Origin: an uncultured Myxococcales bacterium | GTDB lineage: Bacteria > Myxococcota_A > UBA9042 | Direction of reading: 5' to 3' | Assembly (NCBI GenBank): GCA_903883645.1 | Contig: CAISBR010000081.1 | Span: 128,833 to 192,832 of the forward strand | Length of the DNA: 64,000 nt | Shown here: piece after piece, positions 22,665-57,641 of the stretch | How positions within the stretch are numbered: position 1 is the first letter of the stretch | Layout of the letters: each line of letters starts with the position of its first letter | Made by a program: the position numbers and the translations under genes | The notes under the pieces: generated by a model | Databases searched by the model: none | What the model saw: only the letters and a program-made list of their open reading frames with translations | What the model was told of the DNA's origin: nothing

Positions 22665-24050
22665 ATGAATAGAATTGACCGTATCATCGGTTACCTAGCG
22701 TCGCCTGCCGACCGTGCTCTGTTGGAACAGCCCAACATAGCCCGCCGACTGCGCGTCGTCGCCCGCACCGCGCTGCGCTACTTCTGGGTCTATGCGATCC
22801 TGCTAGTCGTCTCCGTCGCATGGGTCAGCGCGGCCGGCAACGTGGTCTACCACAAGACCGAGTCGCCCGAGATGTGCCGTGGCTGCCACGAAATGGGCGT
22901 AAATTTCAAGACTTGGGCGAACTCGCGCCACCACGCCATCAAGTGCGTCGACTGCCACGCCAACCCCGGCCTCGCCGGCTGGGTCGCCGCAAAAACCGGT
23001 GGCATGGTGCAGCTTTACACCCACTTGACCGTCGAGAGCGTCAGCCATGACGACATCGCGCTCGGCCAGGTGCACGAAGACATCGTCAGCCGCAACTGCG
23101 CACGCTGCCACTCGGGCGCCGCGCGGGTATCGGAGCGCGCCGGTCGCAAGCTGGCTCACAGCCGCCACATCGAGATCGGCGTCGCCTGCATCGCCTGCCA
23201 CTCGGGCCGCGTCGCGCACCCCACGCCCAAGGATTCACTCAATACTTACGTTGGCTTGGCTGACACCGATGCGTGCTTCAAGTGCCACGACGGCAAGCAC
23301 ACGGTCACCGGCGGCAAGGGCACCGTCACCGCCTTCGGCCTAACCGACGAGGGTTCGTGCACCAAGTGCCACTTAGACGCGCAACACGCCGTCGACCACT
23401 TTGGCAACAACGAACACGCGCGGGCCCGCAAGCCCTGCCTCGAGTGCCACGAGCACAAAGAGGGCGGGCGCCACTACCTCCTCGACCACAACAACCTGAC
23501 GCCGATGTGCAGCAAGTGCCACGATGCCAAGCTAAAAGAAGCCGCAACCTACGTGTCGAAGCACAAGCCCTTCGCCGACGGCACGTGCAACTCGTGCCAT
23601 CAGGTCATGGCGCCGGCGTATCTGTACAAAGACGGGCCGAAGCCCACCAAGGCATTCTGCCTGGGCTGCCACAAGGACATTGCGGGTGCGCTGGCCCTGC
23701 CCACGCCCACCACGGTGACCTCGTTTAACAACGACGGTGCGGACTTACATGCCTCGCATGCCCAAGATGCGTCGGATCAGGGCGAGAAGCTGTGCCTGGC
23801 CTGCCACGACGGCCACGGTAGCCAAGCGGTGCGCGCCATGATCTTCTTGCGCCCAGCCGAGAAAGACGGCCAGCCCGGCCGCTACATCGGCACACCCAGC
23901 GGCGGCACCTGCCAGGGCGCGTGCCACGACGAGACCGGCAACACCTACAACCGCGCGGGCTCGCCCAAACCGGCAGATCCGCCGGCCGCAGCAACCCCCA
24001 CGGCACCCGCCCCCGCTGCCCCGGCCCAGCCGGCGGACAACAAGGAGTAA
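22665..24050 (+). CDS. NapC/NirT-type multihaem cytochrome c (12 haem motifs)
   Basis: A 461-residue membrane-anchored c-type cytochrome. A single N-terminal helix lies at about residues 38-60. It is followed by ESPEMCRGCHEMGVNF and further motifs resembling the NapC/NirT/CymA quinol dehydrogenases. I count eleven CXXCH haem motifs and one variant CQGACH (CX3CH) near the end. NapC-type proteins usually carry four haems, so the second two-thirds adds a haem-rich domain. Expected role: oxidise menaquinol at the inner membrane and pass electrons to periplasmic carriers. The Ala/Pro-rich C-terminus is probably disordered. Confidence 0.9.
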   Translation: MNRIDRIIGYLASPADRALLEQPNIARRLRVVARTALRYFWVYAILLVVSVAWVSAAGNVVYHKTESPEMCRGCHEMGVNFKTWANSRHHAIKCVDCHANPGLAGWVAAKTGGMVQLYTHLTVESVSHDDIALGQVHEDIVSRNCARCHSGAARVSERAGRKLAHSRHIEIGVACIACHSGRVAHPTPKDSLNTYVGLADTDACFKCHDGKHTVTGGKGTVTAFGLTDEGSCTKCHLDAQHAVDHFGNNEHARARKPCLECHEHKEGGRHYLLDHNNLTPMCSKCHDAKLKEAATYVSKHKPFADGTCNSCHQVMAPAYLYKDGPKPTKAFCLGCHKDIAGALALPTPTTVTSFNNDGADLHASHAQDASDQGEKLCLACHDGHGSQAVRAMIFLRPAEKDGQPGRYIGTPSGGTCQGACHDETGNTYNRAGSPKPADPPAAATPTAPAPAAPAQPADNKE

Positions 24051-24054
24051 GCCA

Positions 24055-24855
24055 ATGCGCGATCACGATTTGCGCCTCGCCCGGCGCTTGGCTGGCCTGC
24101 TGCTGGCGATGACCGCGGCCGTCGCCCCCGGTTGTCACAACGAAGAAAACGCTGTCAGCGCGCCGAGCGGGCCAACCCTAGACGCTGCCACCAAGGCGAG
24201 CAAGGCCCTTTCTGACTACTTTGCTAGCAATATCAAAGTACTCGAAGGTGTGCTGAGCGACATGCAGCTCGCCGGTGCCCAAACGCCCGAGCTCGCGGCC
24301 AAGCTCGCCGCGGCGCGCGCCAAGCTGCCCGACCATGCGATGCTGATGGTGTTCGACGCCAAGCGACAGCTCGTTGCCGGCGACTTCGCCCCCGAGGGCC
24401 TGCCGCCGTACAAAGTGGTCATGCCACTGCTGCGCAAGACCGAGCAGGCGAATAAGCCCATGGTTACCGAAGTGTGGACCGGCAACGACAAGAAGTTTTG
24501 GGTGGCCCAGGGCCGTATGATGGGCGAGGGCGCTACCGCTCAGACCGCCGTAGTGGCCTTTCCGGTCGCGGGCAAGACGACTGCGGCGCTGCTCGGCGCG
24601 TTGCAGAAAGACCCCGCGCAGAACGTGCAAGTGTTTGACGACGTGGGCTTCGCCGTGTGGTCGACCAAGCCCGAAGATCGCTTCAAGTCGGCGGTGCACG
24701 GCACGTATCTGCTTGATCGCATTCAGACCGGCCAGCCCTTCCAGACCAAGTGCCACAACTGCCACGAAGACGCCCAGCACAAGGTCGTGCGTACCGACGT
24801 CATCATCACGGTGGTGCCGGTCGCGGGGACCAAGTGGGGCATCTCTGTACGGTAG
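24055..24855 (+). CDS. Monohaem lipoprotein with sensor-like domain
   Basis: A 266-residue lipoprotein (lipobox VAPGC, Cys at about 27). Residues about 60-210 have the alternating strand/helix look of a periplasmic sensory or PAS/Cache-like domain. Near the end is one haem-c motif (CHNCHEDAQH). AAGGAG overlaps the end of the upstream cytochrome gene and spaces well to this ATG, so it is translated with it. It may be an electron acceptor or redox sensor for the multihaem cytochrome. The domain name is uncertain. Confidence 0.8.
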   Translation: MRDHDLRLARRLAGLLLAMTAAVAPGCHNEENAVSAPSGPTLDAATKASKALSDYFASNIKVLEGVLSDMQLAGAQTPELAAKLAAARAKLPDHAMLMVFDAKRQLVAGDFAPEGLPPYKVVMPLLRKTEQANKPMVTEVWTGNDKKFWVAQGRMMGEGATAQTAVVAFPVAGKTTAALLGALQKDPAQNVQVFDDVGFAVWSTKPEDRFKSAVHGTYLLDRIQTGQPFQTKCHNCHEDAQHKVVRTDVIITVVPVAGTKWGISVR

Positions 24856-42878: not shown

Positions 42879-43841
42879 TTAGGGCTCAAGCGCGGCCGGC
42901 GGCGGACTAGGAATCGCCGAGGCCGGGGCACGCTCAATCTTGGCCGTCTGATTCAGCTTGGTCTCGATCTGACCGCGAACCAACTCGCGCTTGGCCGCTG
43001 CGAGCTCTTCTTCAAGCATTATACGCACATCGGCGAGCTGCAGCGCCGCATTGACCCGAACCTCGACCACTTGGATGACCCAGAAGCGATGGTTGGGACC
43101 GCGGATCAGCTCGGATGTCTGGCCCGCCTTGAGCCGGGGCAACACTTCGCGCCACTGCGCCGGCGTTTGACCGTACTTGAGGAAGCCCAAGTCCCACGGC
43201 CGCGCTTCGCCCAAGTCGGGCGCGCCGGTCAGCTTGACGTAGATGCCGCCGATCGGCTGACCGCGCTGCAGGGCCGCCTGAGCCTCGACCAAGCGCGCTT
43301 CATCGCGGCCAAACAGCTGCAACACATGATACTCGGTACGGATTTGCTGTTGCTCGCGGTCCCACAGCGCCTGTACTTCAGCATCGCTGGGGCGGGTCTG
43401 GTCGAGCACTTGCCGGCGGAAATACAGGTCGGCTAGCCGCTCGCGCCGTTGACCGCTCCGTTGCACTTCGATCTCGGCTAAGTCCTTCAGCACCGCCGCA
43501 TCTGCCTGCATACCTTGCCGCACAGCCTGTTGCGCCGCCAGCTCGCGCTGAATTAGTTGCTCAAGCGTCGCGGCCTCTTGCTCGGGCGTCGCCGGCACGT
43601 TGTTGCGGGTGCGGTTGCGCAGGGCGAAGCGCACGTCGGCGCGGGTCAAGGCCACGCCGTTGATGATCGCGAGCACATCACCACCTACGCTCGTTGCAGC
43701 TGCTGGCAAGTCGGCGGCGGCACAAGGCGGGCACACGGTACCGGCCTCGACCTTGGGGGCAGCAACTAGGGCGGGCGGAGCGGCGCGACTGCAGCCGGCA
43801 ACCGCCAATGCCAACACAAGAATGGGGAACGAAGTACGCAT
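42879..43841 (-). CDS. PpiC-type peptidyl-prolyl isomerase lipoprotein (SurA/PrsA-like)
   Basis: A 320-residue lipoprotein (lipobox VAGC, Cys at about 17). Helical SurA_N-like regions surround a parvulin-type PPIase domain (about 165-270; YHVLQLFGRDEA... LGEARPWDLGFLKYGQ). It should help fold outer-membrane or secreted proteins. I chose the ATG at 43841; the frame upstream is open but the signal peptide starts here. It lies about 85 bases beyond the decahaem cytochrome gene on the same strand, separated by a terminator. Confidence 0.85.
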   Translation of the reverse strand: MRTSFPILVLALAVAGCSRAAPPALVAAPKVEAGTVCPPCAAADLPAAATSVGGDVLAIINGVALTRADVRFALRNRTRNNVPATPEQEAATLEQLIQRELAAQQAVRQGMQADAAVLKDLAEIEVQRSGQRRERLADLYFRRQVLDQTRPSDAEVQALWDREQQQIRTEYHVLQLFGRDEARLVEAQAALQRGQPIGGIYVKLTGAPDLGEARPWDLGFLKYGQTPAQWREVLPRLKAGQTSELIRGPNHRFWVIQVVEVRVNAALQLADVRIMLEEELAAAKRELVRGQIETKLNQTAKIERAPASAIPSPPPAALEP

Positions 43842-43878: not shown

Positions 43879-43910
43879 AGGGGCCCGACCACTGCTGCGG
43901 CCGGGCCCCT
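43879..43910 (-). terminator. Rho-independent terminator downstream of the decahaem cytochrome gene
   Basis: A perfect 9-base inverted repeat (43879-43887 and 43902-43910, AGGGGCCCG arm) lies 18 bases beyond the cytochrome stop on the minus strand. The transcript then reads TTGCCGTTTTTG, a T-rich run typical of intrinsic terminators. Confidence 0.75.
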
Positions 43911-43927
43911 ACACCTAGACGAACACG

Positions 43928-46900
43928 CTAGTTATGGCAAGTGGCGCAGCTCTCCGACTCGTCGCCGCTGAAGGGGTCCAGCGGGGTCGGGTCGTAGGTC
44001 TGCGCGGCAAAGTGGGCCTGCGCCGGCGTCGAGTCGTGGCAGCCCCAGCAGGCCAGACGGCCGGGCTTGGTGGCCCAAGTGCCGCTGGTGGTCTTGTCGG
44101 TGTGGCACATTTGGCAGTTGCGAACGTCGACGGGCAGCGTGATGTCCCAGTTGCGGCCGGCCTCGGGGTCGCCGTTGCTGTACCACACGGTCTGCAGCGG
44201 GAAGTTCATGGCCGCGCCGTTGTGGATGGCGTGCACGCGACGCGAGATCGGGTGCGCACCCTGCCAGCCCTGATTGAACGGCGTATTGCTCAGATCCTTG
44301 GGATTCTGCGGCTGGTAATCGTGGCACGAGCCGCACTGGTCGAGCGCCAGGTCGCGCAGGTGCTTGTTGTGGCGCGACGGGTCGACGATCAGGCCATCGC
44401 CATCGGCATTCTGGTGACAAGTCTGGCAGTTGCGGGCCACGGGCAGCTCTTCGGTCGCCTGCTTGACGGTAAAGTTGAGGAACGCGACGCTGGGCGTGAC
44501 GAAGTTGTCGCCGTCGACGCGATAGCGATCGCCAAGCTCGACGCTGACGGTGTAGGTGCCGGCCGGCAAATCGTCGACCGCATCGAGTTGGTAGGTGATC
44601 TTGCCCGCGGCGCGGACGACCTTGGGATCGTCGATGGCGCCCACTGCGGTGCGCTTGGCCAAGGCGTTGCTCGCGGTGCTGCTGTTGGTGCCGGCAGCGA
44701 TCACATTGCCGCCGAACACGGTGGTATTGAGCGCGCTGGCCGCGAACTGGACCGAGAAGACCTTGCCCAAGTTGCGGCTGCGGACGGCGAACTTGCCGGT
44801 GGCCTCGTCGATGTAGGCGATGCCGCGGGCCTTGAAGGCGGCGTTGGCATTGAAGGCGGTGGCGAGCTCCGTGGCGGTTACGGCCGACTTGCTGACGTAG
44901 GCGGTGGCGCCGATGGCAACGGTGGCGCTGCCCGCGACCAGTTTGTCGCCGCCCGTGGCGTCGTAGGTGACCAGAGACTGGCCGCCGTCGAAGGTAACGG
45001 TCAGGCTGGGTGCGGCATCGGCCGACAAGTCCCAAGGGCCCAGGGTGGTCGACAGGATCTTGGCGCGCGCGGCCATGGTCAACGCCGGCGAGCGGAAAGC
45101 GCGCGGGCCGTGCACGAAGAACGCCGAGTCGCCGAACTTGCCGTTGCGGGTCTGGCAGGTGGCGGGCGGCAGCGTCGTGGGCGCAGTGCCCGTCCAGCAG
45201 CCTTCCGCGGCGCCTTCGATCATGGTGGTGTGGTCGATGGCGGTGCCGGTCTTGGCGTCCTTCAAGATCACCGTAACCAGTGGCGCGTCGCCGGCCTCGT
45301 AGTAGCTCTTGCCGCTCTTGGGCGCACTGATCGACAACTCGACGTTGAACTCAGGGGTTAGGCGCGGGTCCTTGGCCGTCCAGTTGTGCGCTTCGACCAC
45401 GCCCATGCCGTAGCCGCCTTCGTCGTGGCAGATTGTGCACTTGCTGTCGGTGGCCTGTGCGCCGCCCTTGTGATTGACGCCCGTGGTGAAGTCGACGTTG
45501 TCGTGGCACGAACCGCAGGCCGCGCGCGACGGGGTCTTCCACGCATCCACGTTTTGGCCGCTGCCGTTGTGGCACTTGGTGCAGTTGGGCAGCTCGGCGG
45601 GGAAGCCGGCTTTGTACCAGCTGGTCTTGGCGTTGCCGTAACCCCAGATCGCGTACACGTTGGCGAGCAGGCCGTTGTCTTTGGTCTCGTCGGCAGCGGT
45701 GGCGGTGTCGTTCCAGAACTGGCCGTCGGGGCCGGCGATGCTGGCCAGATTGCCGCCCGCGTGGATCTTGTGAATCATCACCTTGGCATCCAGGCTCTGC
45801 TTGCTCTGCGCGTCAAAGCTCGACGGGTTGTGGCAGGTCACGCAGTTCTCGACGGTGAGCCGATCGCCGCCGTGGCCCTTGAACTGGGTGCCGTGGCAGG
45901 CCTGGCAAGCCGAGGTTTGTACGATGTTGCGCGTGGCCGGCAGCGTGGTGATGCTGGTGTCGGGCACAAAGTCGAAGACGGCGTCGGCGGTGGCGCCGCT
46001 GTGGCCGCCAATCATCACACTGACGCGGTGGGTCAGCTTGCGGTCGTAGCCCACGAGTGCGCTGCCGGTCTTGCCGTCGACGGTGGCCTTGGCCAGGTTC
46101 GTTACGAATTCGTAGGTGTAGCTGCCATCGTTGTTGTTGGTCAGCAGGCCGGTGGTGGTGCTGCTGCCGCTGGCCTCGCGGTAGGCCTGGATGGCGATGT
46201 CGCCGTCTTTGGCCGGCCAGGGGTCCTTCGCCGCGGCCGAGCCCGACACGGTCTCGATGCGGTAGATGTAGTTGACCCACTTGGTAAACGACTCGCCGGC
46301 GGTGGCGTCGGGGCCGACCAGTTTGGCGATGTTGGCGCTGACGGCAGCGACGTTGGGCACCGGCTTGCCAACCGCGTCGGCGACCTTGAACTTGACGACC
46401 AGCTTACCGGCGTCGTCGGCGGTGGCGGCCGTGATGGTCATCTTGGCGTCGGTCTTGGCGCCGGCGAGGTATTCGCCCGAAGTCTTGAGGTAATCCAAGC
46501 CGTGGAAGCTGGTGACGCCGATGCCGCCGCCCGCGCCCCCCGTGGGGCCGACCGGGCCCGTGGGGCCAGTAGAGCCGTCTTTGATGGTCACCGAAGTGCC
46601 GTCGCTGCACGTGATGGTCTTGCTGCCGTTGCCGTTGTCTTTGACGGTGCAGCTCGTGCCGTCTTTGCCCGCCGCGCCGGTGTCGCCCGTGGTGCCTGTG
46701 GCACCCTGCGGTCCTTGCTCGCCGGTGGTGCCTGTGGCGCCTTGCGGCCCGGCCACACCCTGCTCCCCCTGCACGCCGGTGGCGCCGTCTTTGATGACAA
46801 TGTTGGTGCCATCGGTGCACGCCACGGTCTTGGTGCCGTCGCCGTTCTCTTTGACCGTGCAGCTATTGCCGTCTTTGCCATTGGTACCGTTGCTGCCATT

Positions 46901-47230
46901 GCTGCCGCTGCTGCCTGCCGAGCCGTTGCTGCCGTTTTGCACCGTGACTGCCGTGCCGTCGGGGCAGGTGATGGTCTTGGTGCCGTCGCCATTGTCTTTG
47001 GCGGTGCAGTCTTTGGCGTCGGTGCCGGTCTTGCCGTCCGAGACCTTGACCTCGGTGGTGCCGCAGGTGATGGTCTTGGTGCCGTCGCCGTTGTCTTTGA
47101 TGACACAGGCTGCACCGGCAGCGCCCGAAGAGCCTTTTTCGCCCTGAGCGCCTTCGCAGGCCAGGGTCATGCCGCCAAGAGCAAGTAGCAGAAGGGTACG
47201 CGAGTTCACCGCGCGCAGAATCCGATCCAT
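43928..47230 (-). CDS. OmcA/MtrC-family decahaem c-type cytochrome lipoprotein with collagen-like stalk
   Basis: An 1100-residue outer-membrane-type lipoprotein (lipobox TLAC, Cys25). I count exactly ten CXXCH haem motifs in two groups of five. Long beta-rich segments separate them, the layout of the OmcA/MtrC decahaem family that passes electrons to extracellular acceptors. The N-terminal 240 residues are unusual. Four copies of a CxxxxNGDGTKTITC-type unit alternate with collagen-like GXY triplet runs. These should form a projecting stalk. GAGG lies seven bases before the ATG. A porin/periplasmic decahaem partner (MtrB/MtrA) is not in the window. Confidence 0.92.
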   Translation of the reverse strand: MDRILRAVNSRTLLLLALGGMTLACEGAQGEKGSSGAAGAACVIKDNGDGTKTITCGTTEVKVSDGKTGTDAKDCTAKDNGDGTKTITCPDGTAVTVQNGSNGSAGSSGSNGSNGTNGKDGNSCTVKENGDGTKTVACTDGTNIVIKDGATGVQGEQGVAGPQGATGTTGEQGPQGATGTTGDTGAAGKDGTSCTVKDNGNGSKTITCSDGTSVTIKDGSTGPTGPVGPTGGAGGGIGVTSFHGLDYLKTSGEYLAGAKTDAKMTITAATADDAGKLVVKFKVADAVGKPVPNVAAVSANIAKLVGPDATAGESFTKWVNYIYRIETVSGSAAAKDPWPAKDGDIAIQAYREASGSSTTTGLLTNNNDGSYTYEFVTNLAKATVDGKTGSALVGYDRKLTHRVSVMIGGHSGATADAVFDFVPDTSITTLPATRNIVQTSACQACHGTQFKGHGGDRLTVENCVTCHNPSSFDAQSKQSLDAKVMIHKIHAGGNLASIAGPDGQFWNDTATAADETKDNGLLANVYAIWGYGNAKTSWYKAGFPAELPNCTKCHNGSGQNVDAWKTPSRAACGSCHDNVDFTTGVNHKGGAQATDSKCTICHDEGGYGMGVVEAHNWTAKDPRLTPEFNVELSISAPKSGKSYYEAGDAPLVTVILKDAKTGTAIDHTTMIEGAAEGCWTGTAPTTLPPATCQTRNGKFGDSAFFVHGPRAFRSPALTMAARAKILSTTLGPWDLSADAAPSLTVTFDGGQSLVTYDATGGDKLVAGSATVAIGATAYVSKSAVTATELATAFNANAAFKARGIAYIDEATGKFAVRSRNLGKVFSVQFAASALNTTVFGGNVIAAGTNSSTASNALAKRTAVGAIDDPKVVRAAGKITYQLDAVDDLPAGTYTVSVELGDRYRVDGDNFVTPSVAFLNFTVKQATEELPVARNCQTCHQNADGDGLIVDPSRHNKHLRDLALDQCGSCHDYQPQNPKDLSNTPFNQGWQGAHPISRRVHAIHNGAAMNFPLQTVWYSNGDPEAGRNWDITLPVDVRNCQMCHTDKTTSGTWATKPGRLACWGCHDSTPAQAHFAAQTYDPTPLDPFSGDESESCATCHN

Positions 47231-47506
47231 AGAACCACCTCGTAGTTGTCGCCCGCCTCGAAAGGTTGGGCAGTGCGGCGTTGGCAGTGCGGCATGGGCA
47301 GCACGACGTTGGGCGGGACTGCAAGGCTTGCGGGTACCCGACCACCCCTTGCGCGAAGGATACCTGTGCCCCCGTGCTCTGGACAGAACCGCACGCGCAG
47401 GCGATCTGGCAGCATTATGTTAATGTTTTAAACTGTTAGCTCAGAAAGTCACACTACAGGTTGCAATCGCGTGACTGGCATGGCATTTCGGTGACGAAAC
47501 GGGCAC
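47231..47506. promoter_or_regulatory. Upstream region of the decahaem cytochrome gene
   Basis: 276 bases with no convincing gene. On the minus strand an AT-rich block (about 47415-47445, with CATTATG and TTTAAAAC) is the best candidate for the cytochrome promoter. Two copies of GGCAGTGCGGC at about 47266-47296 form a short direct repeat of unknown meaning. Confidence 0.4.
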
Positions 47507-50500
47507 CTAGCGGCCGTGGCGCGCAGATTGAGGCAACGACGCCTGGGTGCTGCGGATCTGCGCCGGCTGGGCCCCCTGCGGCGCACTGCGCACGGTGATC
47601 TCGGGGATGGTTAGCGAGCACCACTCGGCCGGGTCGTGCACATGGCGGATCGCCACTACGCCGGGGGCATGGCCGCCCGTCAGCCCTTCGATCCACAGTG
47701 TCAGGGTGCGACTACCGCGGAAAGGCACGGCAATGATTTGCATCTTTGCGCTGCCGAGCGACTGCTGGCCATAGATGAGCTGGCCCTTGTAGTCCGACAG
47801 CGCGTCTTGGGTCTGACGAATCGCCACCGTGGCCGGCACCGCGATAAGTGCGTAATACTCGAGCGGATCTTTGTCGTTATCGAGCACGACGTGCAGCTCA
47901 GACTGTTCGCCCACCGCCAAGCTAGCGTGCTCGACGGTCACCTTGGCGAAGCGCTTTTCGCTGGCGGCGCGCAGGTCTACGACCCCGGGCCTGTCGATGC
48001 GCGCCATCGCCCCACGCGGCAGCGCCAGGTCGGCTAGCTGCGAAACCGCAAGCACTTCGCCCATCTTGACGGCCACGGTCTTGCCGCCCATGTTCAGCTT
48101 GACGGTGCCCTGCTCGGGCGGCCGCGCCCCCATCAGCAGCAGCAGGTCGATAAAGCGGGGCAGCGCCGCCGGCTGGCTATACACACCGCCCAGCATGGCC
48201 GGACCCTGAAGCATTCCAGGCTCTTGCGCTAAAATCATGCCGCGCGCAATCACGCCGAACAGCTTGTCGAAGGTCGGCTTGCCCTTCTCGCCCGCCGCCC
48301 ACGCCGCCTTGGCCTGGCCCATCAGCCACTGCAGCTTGCCCACCCGCTCAAAGGCGCGCAGAAAGCGGAAGGTATCGAGCGACTTACCTAGCGCTAGCAG
48401 GTCACTGCCATCGACCTCGGCCAGCGCCGGACCCAGCTTATCGATGGCAAATTGCTGCACGGCATCATCGGTTACCACCCGGAATAGCACCTTGCCGTCA
48501 ATCTCGACCTCGACCACCTCGAGTCCGCCCTGCGCCTCGTCGTACCCCGCGACTTCGCTGGCCTTTTCGTGGCGCGCGACAAAGCCCTCGTCAAGATGTT
48601 TGGCCAGCGCTTGCAGCCGATTACAGGCATCGGGGGCCTGATTGCATAGCCCGGGCGCGTGCTTAATGGCCCTACGCGCAATCTGCAGGTTGCTCGCCAC
48701 CCAGGCCGTCCAGCGCTTGCTCGGCGCCATGCCGGTCCATGGGCGCAGCTGCTGGCTGCCGGCGTCGTACAGCGCGTCGAGCTGCGTCATAGCATGGTCA
48801 AAACCGCTACTTAGCTGCGTACGGTAACCGTCGTCGCTCAGCAGGTTGCGGTCGATCGCCGCCAAAAGCGTGACCCGGGTCGCCACCTGCGCGGACAGTG
48901 CCTCCGCATGCGGGAACCACGACTCCATGGTGGTGACCACATTGGTCACAATCCCGCGCAGCAGCGGGCCTGGCCCAGGATAAACTACAATCTTTTCGCC
49001 AGGTTGCACACTAATGCGACCCGCGCCACCCACCTCGAGCCGCGACCACGTCACGGGCTGGCGCGCCACATCGGCCACACTAAGCTGCCGGCGATCGTGC
49101 GTCTGCCCCGCCTCGTCGACGAGCGCGAGGTCGATCGTGCCCGGAACCGCTGGCCACGCCACCAGTTGCGTCTGCACGCCCGAGGCCACCGGCCGCTGCA
49201 CAGGCGCTGCGAAACCCGCGCCCGACAGGTGCAAGAACAAGGGCTTGGCCTGCTGATTGTGCGTCACCACCCGCAGCTCGAGCTCGCCGCCGGCCACAAT
49301 CGCGCGCGGCGCCTGCACCTCGACCCACGCTTGCCGCGACAGATCGGTCTGCGCTTCGGCCGTGACCCAGGCCTGTTCGCGCACCGGCGTCCAGCGAAAG
49401 CCAAGGCGACCAGTCTGCGGCGGCGTCGGCACTTGCACGCGGACCTTGCCCGTCGCGTCGGTGCGCACCACGGCCACAAAGGTGACCTTGATCTCGCCCT
49501 GGCGCACCACTTCGCCCCCGTCGTCGTCGTCGCCCGCGCCAGCACCACGGCCAGGGACCGACGGCGGCGGCGCTCCGGCCATTCGCTGCGAGGGCGGTGC
49601 CGACATCTTCATTTCCATGGCCTTTTGCGGGGCTGCAGCACCACCGCTGGCATAGCCATAGCCGTGACCGCCGGCGCTGTCTTCTTTCTTACTCCGTATC
49701 TCGTCGCGCATCGCACGCTTCTCGGCCTCGCGTTGCGCCTTTTCTTCCTCTTTGCGCTGCCGCTCGAGCTCGACCGGATCGACCCAGCCATCCAAGTGCC
49801 GCCCCGCCGCACGCAGACTGTCGCCCACCGCCGAATTGAGCGGCCCCGCGGGATCCTTAGCCGCCACGCGGATATCGTAGGCCTCGAGAATACCCGCCAC
49901 CGCCAGCGGCTGACCGGCGCGGTCCTGCGCCTGCAGCTCGACCGTAACTTCGCTATTGGGCCGGCTCCTTTCGGGCACGATCACCTTGGCCTGCACATCC
50001 GGCGGCGCAAAGGCAAAGGCATACCCCTCGACAAACTTGCCCTTATTCGGCCCACTCTCGGCCGCGCCGCCCAGGCTGACCAGCGCCACCGCACCGCTAA
50101 CCGGCACCTGCAAGACCGTGCCAGCAGCAATTTTCTTGGCAATCTCAAACGGTTGAGGCATCAGCGTGCCGTCTTTATCGGCCTTCCACACGATCACCCC
50201 GGCGTGGTCAAGGTTGTGGCGCACGTGCACGGCCAGCTTGCCGTCTTGGGCTACCAAGCTCTCGACTTCAAACGAGTCTTGCTCAGCCGCCTGCGGCGCG
50301 CGCAGGGTCCACAGCGCTCGGCCCGGCAGCTGCTGGGTCCCTTCGTAGGGCGCCAGCGTCACTAGGTGCAGGTAGCGCACGCCCTTGGCCACCGGGATCA
50401 GCTCGCGCTCGACATGCCCAGAGCCCTCGAATTGATAGCGCAAACTACCCTGAGGGGTAATCACCTCGATCTGAAATGGACCCGAGTGGCCGCTGATCTG

Positions 50501-51277
50501 AATGGTGCCGGCCAGCTCGCCGGCGTGCACCTGCATCTTCTGCCGCGGCCCCGCCACCACGCCGTTGCAGCCACTTAGCATACACCTGGGAATCACTTCG
50601 ACTTCGCCATCGTAGGGCTGATTGTCGACCCGCAGCTGATTCTTAAACGACAGGCCGTTGCCCCAGCGCTGCCCCACACCCGCAGCGTTGCCCAAGAACC
50701 AGCCGCCTTTCACTTTTTCGAGCTGGTCGGCGGCGGTCAGGCGCTCAAAGCTATGGGCAAACGACAGCGCGCCCAGCTGGCCCTCGACCACCGAAAACGT
50801 AGTCGAAATCTTGATCTTTGTATCCGCCGAGGCCACATCGACGCGGTACTCGCCCAGGTCGAGCTTTTGCGTCTTGCCATCGGACAGCTGCACCACGGCC
50901 AAGCCCGTGTCGTCGAGAATCACCTCTTGGTCGCGCGGCGCGGCATCGCGCTTAGCCCAGCTGAGTTTTAGCTTGAGCCCGGCGCGACCGGGCAGAATCA
51001 GCCGCGCCCGCACCACTTCGTCGGGCCAGAACTGCGGCTGGTCCATGGTCAGCGAGGCCAGCTTGAGCGCCATGTGCGGCAACAGGTGGCTGGCAACGCC
51101 CAGAATGTGGTCACTTTTGTCGATGTGAAACAGCCTAGAATCGCGGGCATCGGGGGCAAGCGTGCCACCATCGCGACCGGGCAGGACCAGCAGCGCCGCC
51201 AGCAGCGCGAGCACGCCGGCAAAGGGTAGGCGACCGAGCGGCCGCGTCGAACGAAAGGGGATCAGGGGTGCACGCAT
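47507..51277 (-). CDS. Alpha-2-macroglobulin-like protein without a thioester
   Basis: A 1256-residue exported protein: signal anchor or signal peptide, then many beta-sandwich (MG-type) domains. A central low-complexity charged insert (Glu/Lys/Arg, then Gly/Ala/Met/Pro) lies at about 500-600. A large helical region (about 790-1050) occupies the place of the thioester domain. The bait-type and MG segments resemble bacterial alpha-2-macroglobulins, but I see no GCGEQ-like thioester. It may be a protease trap or an outer-membrane-associated scaffold. I chose the ATG at 51277 (MRAPLIPF) with GAGG six bases upstream; the ATG at 51292 is weaker. Confidence 0.7.
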   Translation of the reverse strand: MRAPLIPFRSTRPLGRLPFAGVLALLAALLVLPGRDGGTLAPDARDSRLFHIDKSDHILGVASHLLPHMALKLASLTMDQPQFWPDEVVRARLILPGRAGLKLKLSWAKRDAAPRDQEVILDDTGLAVVQLSDGKTQKLDLGEYRVDVASADTKIKISTTFSVVEGQLGALSFAHSFERLTAADQLEKVKGGWFLGNAAGVGQRWGNGLSFKNQLRVDNQPYDGEVEVIPRCMLSGCNGVVAGPRQKMQVHAGELAGTIQISGHSGPFQIEVITPQGSLRYQFEGSGHVERELIPVAKGVRYLHLVTLAPYEGTQQLPGRALWTLRAPQAAEQDSFEVESLVAQDGKLAVHVRHNLDHAGVIVWKADKDGTLMPQPFEIAKKIAAGTVLQVPVSGAVALVSLGGAAESGPNKGKFVEGYAFAFAPPDVQAKVIVPERSRPNSEVTVELQAQDRAGQPLAVAGILEAYDIRVAAKDPAGPLNSAVGDSLRAAGRHLDGWVDPVELERQRKEEEKAQREAEKRAMRDEIRSKKEDSAGGHGYGYASGGAAAPQKAMEMKMSAPPSQRMAGAPPPSVPGRGAGAGDDDDGGEVVRQGEIKVTFVAVVRTDATGKVRVQVPTPPQTGRLGFRWTPVREQAWVTAEAQTDLSRQAWVEVQAPRAIVAGGELELRVVTHNQQAKPLFLHLSGAGFAAPVQRPVASGVQTQLVAWPAVPGTIDLALVDEAGQTHDRRQLSVADVARQPVTWSRLEVGGAGRISVQPGEKIVVYPGPGPLLRGIVTNVVTTMESWFPHAEALSAQVATRVTLLAAIDRNLLSDDGYRTQLSSGFDHAMTQLDALYDAGSQQLRPWTGMAPSKRWTAWVASNLQIARRAIKHAPGLCNQAPDACNRLQALAKHLDEGFVARHEKASEVAGYDEAQGGLEVVEVEIDGKVLFRVVTDDAVQQFAIDKLGPALAEVDGSDLLALGKSLDTFRFLRAFERVGKLQWLMGQAKAAWAAGEKGKPTFDKLFGVIARGMILAQEPGMLQGPAMLGGVYSQPAALPRFIDLLLLMGARPPEQGTVKLNMGGKTVAVKMGEVLAVSQLADLALPRGAMARIDRPGVVDLRAASEKRFAKVTVEHASLAVGEQSELHVVLDNDKDPLEYYALIAVPATVAIRQTQDALSDYKGQLIYGQQSLGSAKMQIIAVPFRGSRTLTLWIEGLTGGHAPGVVAIRHVHDPAEWCSLTIPEITVRSAPQGAQPAQIRSTQASLPQSARHGR

Positions 51278-51340
51278 GATAACCTCACACAACCGGCAAG
51301 ACGGAACCTGCAGCTTCGACGAACGAGGCGGCGTGGCGGT

Positions 51341-53167: not shown

Positions 53168-56089
53168 CTAGGGCTGGGGCACAAAGTCGTGGGCGCAGCG
53201 GACACCAAAGCTGGGATCGCTGGCCCCCTGCGGCGAGTCGGCGCGAAAGAAGACCGCCATGACGCCGACGATGCTCCAAGCCGAGCCGCCGCGCAAGATG
53301 CCGGTGCCGTTCGGCTTGGGGCCCTTGGGGTTGACTGCGGCCACATCGTTGTAGGTCGGCAAGAAGTCGTCGCTTACCCACTCGGAGACATTGCCGGCCA
53401 TGCCGATGGGACCCCACGGGGCGTGCCAGCCAGCGCCCACCGACCACGTGCCGCCCGTGCCACAGCCGACGCCGCTGTCGTTGAAGATCGCGAGCGCGCA
53501 CGTTGCAGGCCCAATACCCCAAGGATACAGTTGGTTGCCGGCCAAGCACACCCCGCCGGTCGAGACGGTGCAGGTGGGGCCGCGCGCGGCACGCTCCCAC
53601 TCGTGCTCTGTAGGCAAGCGTTTGCCGATGAATTTGCAGTATTTCGTCGCGGCGTCGCGGTTCAGGCAGTTGACCGGATGGTCCGACTTGCCCGCCATGC
53701 TGCTGTTGCAGGCCGGGTCGGTGATAGCGGGGCAACTGCCCGCGGCCACGCACTTGGTGTAATCGCTGACGCGCGCTTCGGTCACGTCGATGAAAAACGG
53801 GTCGAGGGTGGCCACGTGGATCGGCCGCGCGCTGTCGGGGCACATCAGGCCCAGGCTGGCGGGGTCACAGCCAAACTCGGCCTTCGCACTGGCGATGTAT
53901 GTAGACTGCTTCGCTAAAAGCGCGTGTAGGCAGTAGCCGGTGGCGCTGCAGATCATGTTGGCATTGCTCGCATCGCAGCTCGTCCACTCAGGGGCCGGGC
54001 CGTGTTGGCAGCCCTTGAGCGGATCGCAACTCTCGAGCGTGCAGTTGTTGCCGTCGCTGCAGTTGAGCGGGGTCTTGCCGGGGCTGCAGCTGCCGGCGGC
54101 GCAGATATCGCCGGTAGTGCACGGGTTGCCGTCGTCGCACGCCAGTTGGTTGGGCTCGTAGGCGCAGCCGGTGATCTTAAAGCAGGTGTCGTGGGTGCAG
54201 GGGTTGTTGTCGTTGCAGGCGATGAGCTTGCCCTGGCAGCTGGTGGCGCTGACGCAGGCATCGCCGCTCGTGCACACGTTGCCGTCGCTGCACGCGGCGC
54301 CCACGCTGGGGCTGTGGGTGCAGCCGCTCAAGGGGTTGCAACTGTCTGTAGTACAAGGCAAGCCGTCGTCGCAACTCACGGCGGTGTGCAGGCACTTGCC
54401 GGCCTGAATGGGGTCGCAGGCGTCGCTCGTGCAGGCATTGCTGTCGTTGCAGGGGTCGCCGGTGCCCTTGCACACCCCCGTCTTGTCGCACGCATCGGCT
54501 GCCGAGCAGGGGTTGCCATCGTCGCACACTAGGCCCGTTAGTACCGCGTGGCTGCACATGCCGGTGGCGCTGCTGCAACTATCTGTGGTGCATGGATTGT
54601 TGTCGTTGCACAGGTTGCTGGGCTGCCCTTTGCAGGCCTTGGCGTCGCAGCCGTCGCCGCTGGTGCACGCATCGCCGTCGTCGCACGGCGCCGCGTTGGC
54701 GCTGTGGACGCACTTCACACCACTGTCGCACGCATCGTCGGTACACGGATTGCCGTCGCTGCAGTCAAAAGGCTTGCCGGGCGCGCACTTGCCGGCCTTG
54801 CACAAGTCCCATGTCGTGCAGGGGTCGTCGTCGTCGCAGAACCCGCCAGTGGGCGGAAACTGGCAGCCGAGCTTGGCGTCGCACGTATCTTGTGTGCATT
54901 CGTTGCCGTCAAAGCACGCGATGGTCTTGCCGCCCACGCACGCCGCAGTGTCGGCTTGGCAGGCGTCGCCCAAGGTGCAAGCGCTGCCGTCGTCGCAAGG
55001 CAGGCCGGCCAAGATCTGGTGCACACAGCCCGCCTCGGCCAAGCACATGTCGCTGGTGCACGGATTCCAGTCGTTGCAGTCGATGCCGCCGATGCCGCCG
55101 CACACACCCTCTTTGCAAACATCGCCAGTGGTGCACGCATTGCCGTCGCTACACGGGCCCGACTTTAGCGTAAATACGCAGCCTTTTACCGGGTCACAGC
55201 TGTCGGCCGTGCACGGGTTGCCGTCGCCGCAAAGGACCGGCGCGCCTTGGCAACTGCCGCTGCTGCAGTGCTTGTCTTGCGCGCAGGCGTTGCTGTCGAG
55301 GCACGGCCCGCCGCTCGGACCGGGGTCGTACTGGCAGCCGCTCACCGGGTTGCAGCCGTCGCTTGTGCACGGGTTGTCGTCGGCACAGTTCAGAGGCGAA
55401 CCTTTGCACCACCCTGAGTTACAGCCGTCGCTCTGGGTGCAGGCGTCGCCGTCGTCGCACTTGGCCTGGGGTGTCGCCAGGTGGGTGCAGGCCAAGTTCT
55501 TGTCGCAGTCGTCGCTGGTGCACGGGTTATTATCGTCACAATTCAAGACCTTGCCAAGGCATTGCCCGTCTTTGCACAGGTCGTTCAGGCTGCAGGCGTC
55601 GCCATCGCTGCACGGTACCGGGCCCGCGGGCTGGTGCACGCAGCCGCTGGCAAAGTCGCAGCCATCGATGGTGCAGGCGTTGCCGTCGTCGCAGGCCAGC
55701 GTGTCGAAGGCCTTGCAACTGCCCTTGTAGCAGGTGTCGTTGAGCGTGCAGGCGCTGCCGTCGTCGCAGGGGCCAGTGGTGGCAGTGTGCTGGCAGCCCA
55801 GGCCGACGGCGCAACTGTCTTGCGTGCACGGACTGTTGTCGTTGCAGTCTAGTGAGTTAGCACCCTTGCACGCGCCCGCCACGCAGCTATCGCCGGTGGT
55901 GCAGGGGTCGCCGTCTTGGCAGGTGCCGCTGGCGAGCGCAGTGTGCTGGCAGCCCTTGGCGGGTACGCACTTATCGTCGGTACAGGGGTTGGCGTCGTTG
56001 CAGCCGGCGGCGTCGCACAAGATCGGCGTCTCGCTCGAACAGCCCAAGGTCACGGCGATCAGCGCCAAAATCACAAGCCAAGCACGCAT
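53168..56089 (-). CDS. Cys-repeat protein with C-terminal FGE-sulfatase (SUMF1-like) domain
   Basis: A 973-residue lipoprotein (signal peptide with TLGC, Cys at about 17; GGAGG before the ATG). I count about 26 Cys modules of the form CxDxxPCTxDxC, arranged as alternating subtypes so that a roughly 43-residue pair repeats about thirteen times. The last ~250 residues are a formylglycine-generating-enzyme-like domain: DVTEARVSDYTKCV, RLPTEHEWERAARG, AGNVSEWV, LRGGSAW, FGVRCAH. In sulfatase maturation this fold oxidises a Cys; many relatives act in other ways. Ligand binding or redox activity at the cell surface is possible. Confidence 0.85.
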   Translation of the reverse strand: MRAWLVILALIAVTLGCSSETPILCDAAGCNDANPCTDDKCVPAKGCQHTALASGTCQDGDPCTTGDSCVAGACKGANSLDCNDNSPCTQDSCAVGLGCQHTATTGPCDDGSACTLNDTCYKGSCKAFDTLACDDGNACTIDGCDFASGCVHQPAGPVPCSDGDACSLNDLCKDGQCLGKVLNCDDNNPCTSDDCDKNLACTHLATPQAKCDDGDACTQSDGCNSGWCKGSPLNCADDNPCTSDGCNPVSGCQYDPGPSGGPCLDSNACAQDKHCSSGSCQGAPVLCGDGNPCTADSCDPVKGCVFTLKSGPCSDGNACTTGDVCKEGVCGGIGGIDCNDWNPCTSDMCLAEAGCVHQILAGLPCDDGSACTLGDACQADTAACVGGKTIACFDGNECTQDTCDAKLGCQFPPTGGFCDDDDPCTTWDLCKAGKCAPGKPFDCSDGNPCTDDACDSGVKCVHSANAAPCDDGDACTSGDGCDAKACKGQPSNLCNDNNPCTTDSCSSATGMCSHAVLTGLVCDDGNPCSAADACDKTGVCKGTGDPCNDSNACTSDACDPIQAGKCLHTAVSCDDGLPCTTDSCNPLSGCTHSPSVGAACSDGNVCTSGDACVSATSCQGKLIACNDNNPCTHDTCFKITGCAYEPNQLACDDGNPCTTGDICAAGSCSPGKTPLNCSDGNNCTLESCDPLKGCQHGPAPEWTSCDASNANMICSATGYCLHALLAKQSTYIASAKAEFGCDPASLGLMCPDSARPIHVATLDPFFIDVTEARVSDYTKCVAAGSCPAITDPACNSSMAGKSDHPVNCLNRDAATKYCKFIGKRLPTEHEWERAARGPTCTVSTGGVCLAGNQLYPWGIGPATCALAIFNDSGVGCGTGGTWSVGAGWHAPWGPIGMAGNVSEWVSDDFLPTYNDVAAVNPKGPKPNGTGILRGGSAWSIVGVMAVFFRADSPQGASDPSFGVRCAHDFVPQP

Positions 56090-56219
56090 GCAGCCTCCGC
56101 GGCGGACACGCAGGCCCGCTAAGGTTCGACGCAGGCGATCGCCGGGGTTCGATCGCGGTAGGCCGCGAGCTTGGCACAGGCGCTGACGCTTGGGCAAGAC
56201 CCAGGCGGCGACCCAAAGT

Positions 56220-57641
56220 TCATGGACGCAGCGGCACAAAGCTGGCATTGCCGTCGCGCCAGACCAAAAGCATTGCCAATTTGCCCGCTTGCATGGTCTG
56301 GGCCAAGTCGGTCGGCGTCGTGACTGGCTTGCGGTCGACTTCAAGGATCAAGTCGCCGCGTTGCAGTCCCGCACGGGCCGCGGCGCTGTCGGCCTCGACC
56401 TCAGTGATCACCAAGCCATTTAAGTTCGCAGGCAAATCACGCTCGCGCCGCAACGCCGGCGAGATGGGTTCGACCAGCAGCCCAGCCGCGGGCAGGCTAG
56501 CCGGAGTCGCCAGGAGCGGCGCACGCGACGGCTCGGGAGCTTCGGCCACCACAGCTTGCAGCTGCACAACCTGGCCGTCGCGCAGCACTTCGACCAGCAG
56601 CGTGCTGCCCACCGCGGCCAGAGCAATCGCGTTGCGCATTAGCAAAGGCGAGCCTGTCGCCGAGGGACCGAGCCGCAACAGCACATCGCCACGCCGCAAT
56701 CCCGCGCGGTCGGCCGGCGAAGCGCGCTGCACATCGGTAATGAGCACACCGGCGCGATCGCCCACCGCAAAGGCCTCGCGCAGCTCGGCGCTCAGGTCCT
56801 GCACGCCTACACCCAGCCAACCGCGCACCACACGGCCTTTTTCGAGCAAGTTTTGCATCAGCGGCCGCACCATGTTGGCGGGGATGGCAAAGCCGATACC
56901 CACGCTGCCCCCCGAGGCACTGGCGATGGCGGTGGCGATGCCGACCAGCTCTCCGCGCAAATTCACCAGCGCTCCCCCCGAGTTACCAGGGTTAATCGCA
57001 GCGTCGGTTTGCACAAAGTCTTCGTAATCGGCGATGTGTACGTTGGCGCGGCCCTTGGCGCTGACGATGCCGTGGCTGACGCTTTGGCCCAAACCGTACG
57101 GGCTGCCGATGGCTAACACCACTTCGCCCAAGCGTAATTTGTCGGAGTCGGCGAATTTTAGCGCGTGCAGGCCCTTTAGGTCGCCCTGCAGCCTAAGCAC
57201 CGCCAGGTCGGACCGGGCATCGCCTCCCACCAATTCCGCCGTCAGATCGCGGCCATCGGCTAGGCGCACGTGAATGAATTGCGCACCATCGATCACATGG
57301 TTGCTGGTGACCACAATGCCCTTGTCGTCGACAATGACCCCTGAACCCAGCGAATGGCTTTGTGTTTCGTCGTGATCGCCGCCGCGCAGGCCCCAAAAAC
57401 GCCGAAAGAGCCGCTCTTCTTGAGTGGGCACCCGCCGCTGAATCCGCGTGGTCGAGATGTTGACCACCGACTGCACCGCCAGCTCGGCCGCATCCGCCAT
57501 CTCGTTGCTGCCGTGTACATGGCCACTAACTACGCTTGCCGCCTGATGATCTGCCTCGCTGGGCCGGCACGCCGCGCACGCCAAAAGCCACGCCGCGATG
57601 GCCACCCAGCGCCAAGTCCAAGAGGTCGCAAGTCGGTGCAT
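56220..57641 (-). CDS. HtrA/DegP-type serine protease, lipoprotein, two PDZ domains
   Basis: A 473-residue trypsin-like periplasmic protease. The N-terminus has lipobox-like LLAC/CAAC (Cys22 or Cys25). The catalytic triad is His115 (SNHVIDGA), Asp145 (SDLAVLRL) and Ser221 (GNSGGAL). Two PDZ domains follow, at about 265-360 and 390-460. The protein should act in envelope quality control. Its ATG is two bases from the stop of the E1 beta gene, suggesting translational coupling, though no shared role is obvious. Confidence 0.93.
   Translation of the reverse strand: MHRLATSWTWRWVAIAAWLLACAACRPSEADHQAASVVSGHVHGSNEMADAAELAVQSVVNISTTRIQRRVPTQEERLFRRFWGLRGGDHDETQSHSLGSGVIVDDKGIVVTSNHVIDGAQFIHVRLADGRDLTAELVGGDARSDLAVLRLQGDLKGLHALKFADSDKLRLGEVVLAIGSPYGLGQSVSHGIVSAKGRANVHIADYEDFVQTDAAINPGNSGGALVNLRGELVGIATAIASASGGSVGIGFAIPANMVRPLMQNLLEKGRVVRGWLGVGVQDLSAELREAFAVGDRAGVLITDVQRASPADRAGLRRGDVLLRLGPSATGSPLLMRNAIALAAVGSTLLVEVLRDGQVVQLQAVVAEAPEPSRAPLLATPASLPAAGLLVEPISPALRRERDLPANLNGLVITEVEADSAAARAGLQRGDLILEVDRKPVTTPTDLAQTMQAGKLAMLLVWRDGNASFVPLRP

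Follow-up and report, generated by a model that had tools for sequence, protein, structure and literature searches.

We report a decahaem cytochrome gene in a stretch of 64,000 nucleotides from the genome of an uncultured Myxococcales bacterium, hereafter called the window. The encoded protein combines an OmcA/MtrC-type head with a long collagen-like tether, and it is probably a tethered, OmcA-like terminal oxidoreductase of the cell surface, fed by a porin-cytochrome conduit other than Mtr. In the host genome (G000; 6.0 Mb in 244 contigs, 95%-complete), which to judge by its fragmentation is metagenome-assembled and whose gene content points to Myxococcota, the gene lies on contig C81, and its product is 81% identical to the closest named record, 'Deltaproteobacteria bacterium isolate NC_groundwater_1654'. 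The gene and the parts of its product are as follows.

43928..47230, reverse strand: gene of the stalked decahaem OmcA/MtrC-family cytochrome, ATG start, 1100 amino acids (aa)
47235..47241, reverse strand: ribosome-binding sequence GAGGTGG, 4 nucleotides (nt) 5' of the ATG, from the sequence
47156..47230, reverse strand: putative signal peptide with lipobox-like MTLA before C25, read from the sequence only
46523..47155, reverse strand: tether, residues 26-236 (211 aa), 34 Gly-X-Y triplets and four Cys repeats (TIGR04203, PF01391, PF19079)
47063..47107, reverse strand: Cys repeat 1, C42-X13-C56, matches CxxxxNGDGTKTITC exactly
46964..47008, reverse strand: Cys repeat 2, C75-X13-C89, matches CxxxxNGDGTKTITC exactly
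46817..46861, reverse strand: Cys repeat 3, C124-X13-C138, variant KTVAC, Cys kept in 11 of 11 orthologues
46607..46651, reverse strand: Cys repeat 4, C194-X13-C208, variant NGNGSKTITC, Cys kept in 11 of 11 orthologues
45932..46522, reverse strand: domain I, OmcA-like_N (PF22112, residues 264-427)
45371..45931, reverse strand: domain II, haems 1-5 (PF22113 at 434-615), conserved non-CXXCH His 453, 487, 490, 587 and 615
44441..45370, reverse strand: domain III, enlarged, from the orthologue alignment, without a Pfam match of its own
45155..45199, reverse strand: C678-X13-C692, the CX8-15C motif of domain III, invariant in 11 orthologues
43931..44440, reverse strand: domain IV, haems 6-10 (PF22113), conserved non-CXXCH His 954, 1000, 1003 and 1073
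43934..43948, reverse strand: haem 10 motif CATCH, one residue before the C-terminus, from the alignment and tree of heads

Membership of the protein in the OmcA/MtrC-type family, proposed in a first-pass annotation of the window, is supported by profile searches and a sequence search of PDB. The protein scored 291.2 bits against TIGR03507 (NCBIfam, OmcA/MtrC family decahaem), for which the curated cut-off is 209.3; Pfam gave PF22112 once and PF22113 twice, with PF01391 over its cut-off and PF19079 just over it; and the nearest PDB structures by sequence were OmcA (4lmh, 9e-18), UndA and MtrC. Exactly ten CXXCH motifs are present, at residues 442, 463, 550, 572 and 598 and at residues 935, 966, 1039, 1061 and 1095, which confirms the two groups of five counted earlier; none of 2000 shuffled versions of the protein had more than one. 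In orthologues the lipobox position reads LTAC, ATGC or ASGC. The cysteine pair C678-X13-C692 of domain III is an addition to the earlier reading: according to Edwards et al. 2015 (PMC4486940), every multihaem cytochrome of the OmcA/MtrC kind in the outer membrane has such a CX8-15C pair, and in Shewanella it is a redox disulphide switch controlling flavin binding. Structure prediction of the protein from an alignment with two relatives reached a predicted local distance difference test score (pLDDT) of 30, with weak strands over the Cys repeats only. A staggered-cross haem arrangement between Greek-key barrels, as in the family, may be expected from the sequence profiles.

Triplets of the tether were counted only in runs of three or more. 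The longest run comprises 15 triplets, compared with a mean of 2.9 and a maximum of 6 in shuffles, and the tether scored 67.5 bits against TIGR04203 (cut-off 60). The first-pass annotation had described collagen-like runs alternating with four CxxxxNGDGTKTITC units; the runs stand, and there are four Cys-X13-Cys repeats, but only two of them match that unit exactly, the others being variants. It had also suggested that the stalk could hold the cytochrome away from the cell surface, and what is supported of such a rigid spacer is its collagen-like sequence. Within the family the tethers of orthologues are similar in size, with varying triplet number and run lengths. When the stalk was sought in homologues from a phylum-wide sample, Gly-X-Y runs were found right behind the lipid cysteine in nearly all OmcA/MtrC-family proteins, with or without Cys repeats; L113 is the sole protein scored that has no such run, the tethers of L118 and L120 having been left out of the scoring. 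What had seemed a curiosity of a single gene is thus, as far as sequence goes, a phylum-wide design and not peculiar to the window gene, and the stalk is correspondingly less special than had been suggested. At the same N-terminal place, Shewanella OmcA has GGSDGKDGEDGKPG followed by VVGVN, about six triplets, in the PDB-search alignment. No paper on collagen-like multihaem cytochromes was found in the open-access literature with the terms tried.

A model of the Cys repeat gave 16 matches in the host genome, all within four multihaem cytochromes: the window protein, decahaem OmcA/MtrC proteins on contigs C89 and C171, and a 9-haem cytochrome on C193. The module is not specific to cytochromes, since in the relative G005 the repeats are also borne by a lipoprotein without haem motifs (L083:7513-9909, forward strand). 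In another relative, G015, the same type of stalk bears a third type of head, with seven CXXCH (L080:1764-5495, forward strand).

The head of the window protein belongs to a new subclade, termed tail-less, in which the protein stops at the tenth haem motif. A tree of 36 heads, all from one phylum, placed the window protein in one group with its orthologues and with two homologues found in other families; support for this group was 100/100, and its stem was long, at 1.25 changes per column. Every member of this group (13/13) ends 0-5 residues past the tenth CXXCH, with no histidine there; the other heads (23/23) continue for 12-57 residues, histidine included. As candidate distal ligands for bis-His haems of the family's kind, five histidines outside the CXXCH motifs are conserved among the orthologues in domain II versus four in domain IV. 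Because domain IV has only these four and a tail histidine is missing, haem 10 is predicted to be vacant or unusually ligated; a substitute ligand could be H707 in domain III, which at least 10 of 11 orthologues share.

The absence of MtrA and MtrB genes from the vicinity of the cytochrome gene, noted earlier, was borne out. In the case of MtrB the absence is genome-wide in the host, the MtrB/PioB model (TIGR03509) having no match at E <= 10; the best match of the MtrA/DmsE-type model (TIGR03508) reached 62.8 bits, with a cut-off of 192.2. Among 141 genomes sampled from the phylum, 34 had an OmcA/MtrC-family match and 6 an MtrB match, with no overlap, so that equating OmcA/MtrC matches with the Mtr pathway is unsafe in this phylum. 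The window protein is not the only exported cytochrome of its host: a DNA pattern coding for CXXCH matched 874 times in the genome, against 270 times for the reversed control pattern, and three further stalked cytochromes are encoded. Searching the genome for porin-cytochrome modules yielded two candidate clusters, on contigs C193 and C24. Read gene by gene, the C193 cluster (L031, G000:C193, 4055-14914, reverse strand) encodes a lipoprotein with 24 haems, a barrel-like exported protein, another lipoprotein with 13 haems and the stalked 9-haem cytochrome mentioned above. In the 9-haem protein, CarboxypepD_reg and PKD domains lie between stalk and haems.

The distribution of the C193 barrel-like protein follows that of the decahaem. 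Among 22 genomes of the family, both were found in the same 14 and neither in the same 8; G014, from the same genus as the host, has neither. The two genes share a contig in three genomes of the family. In G016 they form part of one run on one strand, encoding in order ResB, CcsA, the decahaem, an unassigned stretch, a tetrahaem, a 4Fe-4S protein, NrfD, and the 9-haem, 24-haem, barrel-like and 13-haem proteins, ResB and CcsA being concerned with cytochrome c maturation. The arrangement in G013 is the same, again in one run on one strand, the genes read being those for the decahaem, an iron-sulphur (FeS) protein, NrfD, and the 9-haem, 24-haem, barrel-like and 13-haem proteins, and in G021 the decahaem gene, a multihaem gene (at least 7 CXXCH) and the barrel-like gene lie on one contig. 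Taken in order, the runs of G016 and G013 look like a route that leads from quinol out to the cell surface. The question of how electrons cross the outer membrane, left open by the first-pass annotation, is narrowed by the C193 cluster, which co-occurs with the decahaem and adjoins it in two relatives; a candidate alternative conduit can now be named and is open to experiment. An apparent fusion of the barrel-like and 13-haem proteins in G016 was rejected as a wrong-frame open reading frame.

Several points weigh against a pairing of the decahaem with the C193 cluster. The naive chance of co-occurrence in 14 of 22 genomes (3e-6, with genomes treated as independent) is only indicative, and it is too small because the genomes counted are related. 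The tail-less subclade and the barrel-like protein overlap in 12 of 14 genomes, because the decahaem OmcA/MtrC-type proteins of G008 and G021 fall outside the subclade. In the host genome, decahaem and conduit lie on separate contigs (C81 and C193). The C193 barrel-like protein had no family or PDB match, profile search included, and hydrophobicity-alternation tests, the last with OmpF as control, did not tell it from soluble proteins; composition alone favours the putative barrel, glycine plus aromatic residues making up 19-25% of the barrel-like protein, 11-15% of soluble controls and 29% of OmpF. Finally, the C24 cluster is a second candidate conduit, although the distribution of its barrel-like protein matches that of the decahaem less well than does that of C193.

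In the reading that we favour, the exported protein would be tied to the outer membrane by a lipid anchor and would reach the cell surface, probably via type II secretion, the export route stated for MtrC, OmcA and MtrF (PMC4486940); GspD is over its cut-off in the host genome. The decahaem head on its Gly-X-Y/Cys-repeat tether would then take electrons from a C193-type conduit, not from MtrAB, and deliver them to extracellular acceptors, be they Fe/Mn oxides, humics, flavins or partner cells. On its tether the head may be able to reach an acceptor and then swing back to the conduit, a model that fits the observation that OmcA and UndA complexes are more transient than those of MtrC (Edwards et al., PMC4486940). 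We further suggest, tentatively and with more doubt than conviction, that the components constitute a separate system for electron transfer at the cell surface in this phylum, made up of tail-less heads, a perhaps vacant haem 10, trimerised or tethered stalks, an undescribed conduit (24-haem, barrel, 13-haem and stalked 9-haem proteins) and an NrfD-type quinol dehydrogenase.

Two features lie downstream of the cytochrome gene.

42879..43841, reverse strand: lipoprotein peptidyl-prolyl isomerase (PPIase; PrsA/SurA/HP_0175-like), adjoining the decahaem gene in most orthologues
43879..43910, reverse strand: strong intrinsic terminator that separates the cytochrome gene from the PPIase gene, 14 pairs, then TGCCGTTTTT

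It is unlikely that the tether acts as a rigid stand-off, with the Gly-X-Y runs forming a triple helix that would hold a 30-haem trimer about 30 nm or more off the membrane, fed via other surface cytochromes. The collagen triple helix rises by about 0.29 nm per residue, and at this value the triplet part of the tether would span about 29 nm; the PF01391 match, the number of triplets and the run of 15 fit such a helix. Proline isomerisation is a limiting factor in collagen folding, and a lipoprotein PPIase gene comes after the decahaem gene in most orthologues other than those of G016, G013 and G021. A shared transcript is doubtful, since the strong terminator (64-nt fold, -37.2 kcal/mol, z -5.0) separates the two genes in the window. 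Against rigidity stand the shortness of the Gly-X-Y runs, their interruption by Cys repeats, the scarcity of prolines and the differences in triplet number and run lengths between orthologues, and the structure prediction (pLDDT 30) is uninformative. Moreover, at 29-30 nm the head would be too far from the conduit for tunnelling, which makes it more plausible that the tether is flexible or that surface cytochromes act as relay; for the latter, the stalked 9-haem protein may serve as an example.

Electron uptake, that is, the same chain run inward from Fe(II) or partner cells, is rather improbable. Cytochrome chains of such kind are able to run both ways, and a locus on contig C19 of the host genome (L037, G000:C19, 907-9141, reverse strand) has a gene order like that of alternative complex III, with a pentahaem protein first. 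The genes near the decahaem, however (NrfD, FeS and tetrahaem in G016; NrfD and FeS in G013), fit quinol oxidation.

We consider it quite improbable that the electron partner is the C24 cluster (L035, G000:C24, 7496-12319, reverse strand), which encodes a 23-haem protein, a 13-haem protein of 346 aa, a barrel-like protein ending in YRF and then a large oxidoreductase-like protein. The 13-haem protein beside a barrel-like protein resembles the two-gene porin-cytochrome (Pcc) cluster of Anaeromyxobacter, the periplasmic Pcc cytochromes of Anaeromyxobacter and Kuenenia having 338-344 aa and 12-14 haems (PMC4245776), but the C24 barrel-like protein is absent from several genomes with the decahaem and present in three without it. 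That the tether serves mainly as an adhesin or as part of a biofilm matrix, with the haems as a charge store and not a respiratory terminus, is highly improbable: although the Cys repeat has relatives among the repeats of surface proteins (TIGR04203, collagen-flanked surface repeat proteins) and occurs on the haem-motif-free lipoprotein of G005, all 16 repeat matches of the host genome fall within multihaem cytochromes, and haem motifs, conserved histidines and the domain III cysteine pair are all kept in the head.

Elsewhere in the window, a second multihaem cytochrome was found that the first-pass annotation had not mentioned.

22665..24050, forward strand: 11-CXXCH cytochrome with NapC/NirT-like N-terminus, 20 kb from the decahaem gene

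It is a possible quinol-side or periplasmic partner of the decahaem. Just behind its gene lies that of a one-CXXCH protein (24055-24855, forward strand). Upstream of the decahaem gene, 47507-51292 (reverse strand) encodes a 1261-aa secreted protein with weak alpha-2-macroglobulin-like matches only, and in G015 (L046) the same gene likewise lies upstream of the decahaem. A further product, encoded at 53168-56344 (reverse strand), carries an FGE-sulfatase domain behind 14 Cys-rich repeats of the Dicty_CTDC type.

Among known systems, the window protein resembles OmcA, UndA and MtrC of Shewanella in its ten CXXCH in two pentahaem domains, its domain I match, its CX8-15C pair and its lipoprotein-like start, and shares Gly-X-Y triplets with the short N-terminal tract of OmcA; it differs from them in the length of its tether, in the haem 10 motif at the C-terminus and in its enlarged domain III. 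Unlike Shewanella with its MtrCAB, the host genome has no MtrB match and no MtrA match over cut-off. In gene order the C193 cluster resembles the Pcc clusters known from Geobacter and from Anaeromyxobacter (OmbB-OmaB-OmcB; PMC4245776), in which a porin-like protein other than MtrB is encoded with large multihaem cytochromes; the putative counterpart of that protein in C193 is the barrel-like protein, and the 13-haem partner is matched by the 12-14 haems of the Anaeromyxobacter Pcc. It differs by its 24-haem lipoprotein and stalked 9-haem cytochrome. Long simple repeats on an extracellular multihaem protein are also known from PgcA of Geobacter sulfurreducens (PMC5732950), but its three haems are parted by PTx repeats and its head is unrelated to that of the window protein. 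Collagen-flanked surface repeat proteins (PF19079, TIGR04203) also set short surface repeats amid collagen-like segments, whereas in the window protein the repeats bear a Cys pair and would serve a cytochrome.

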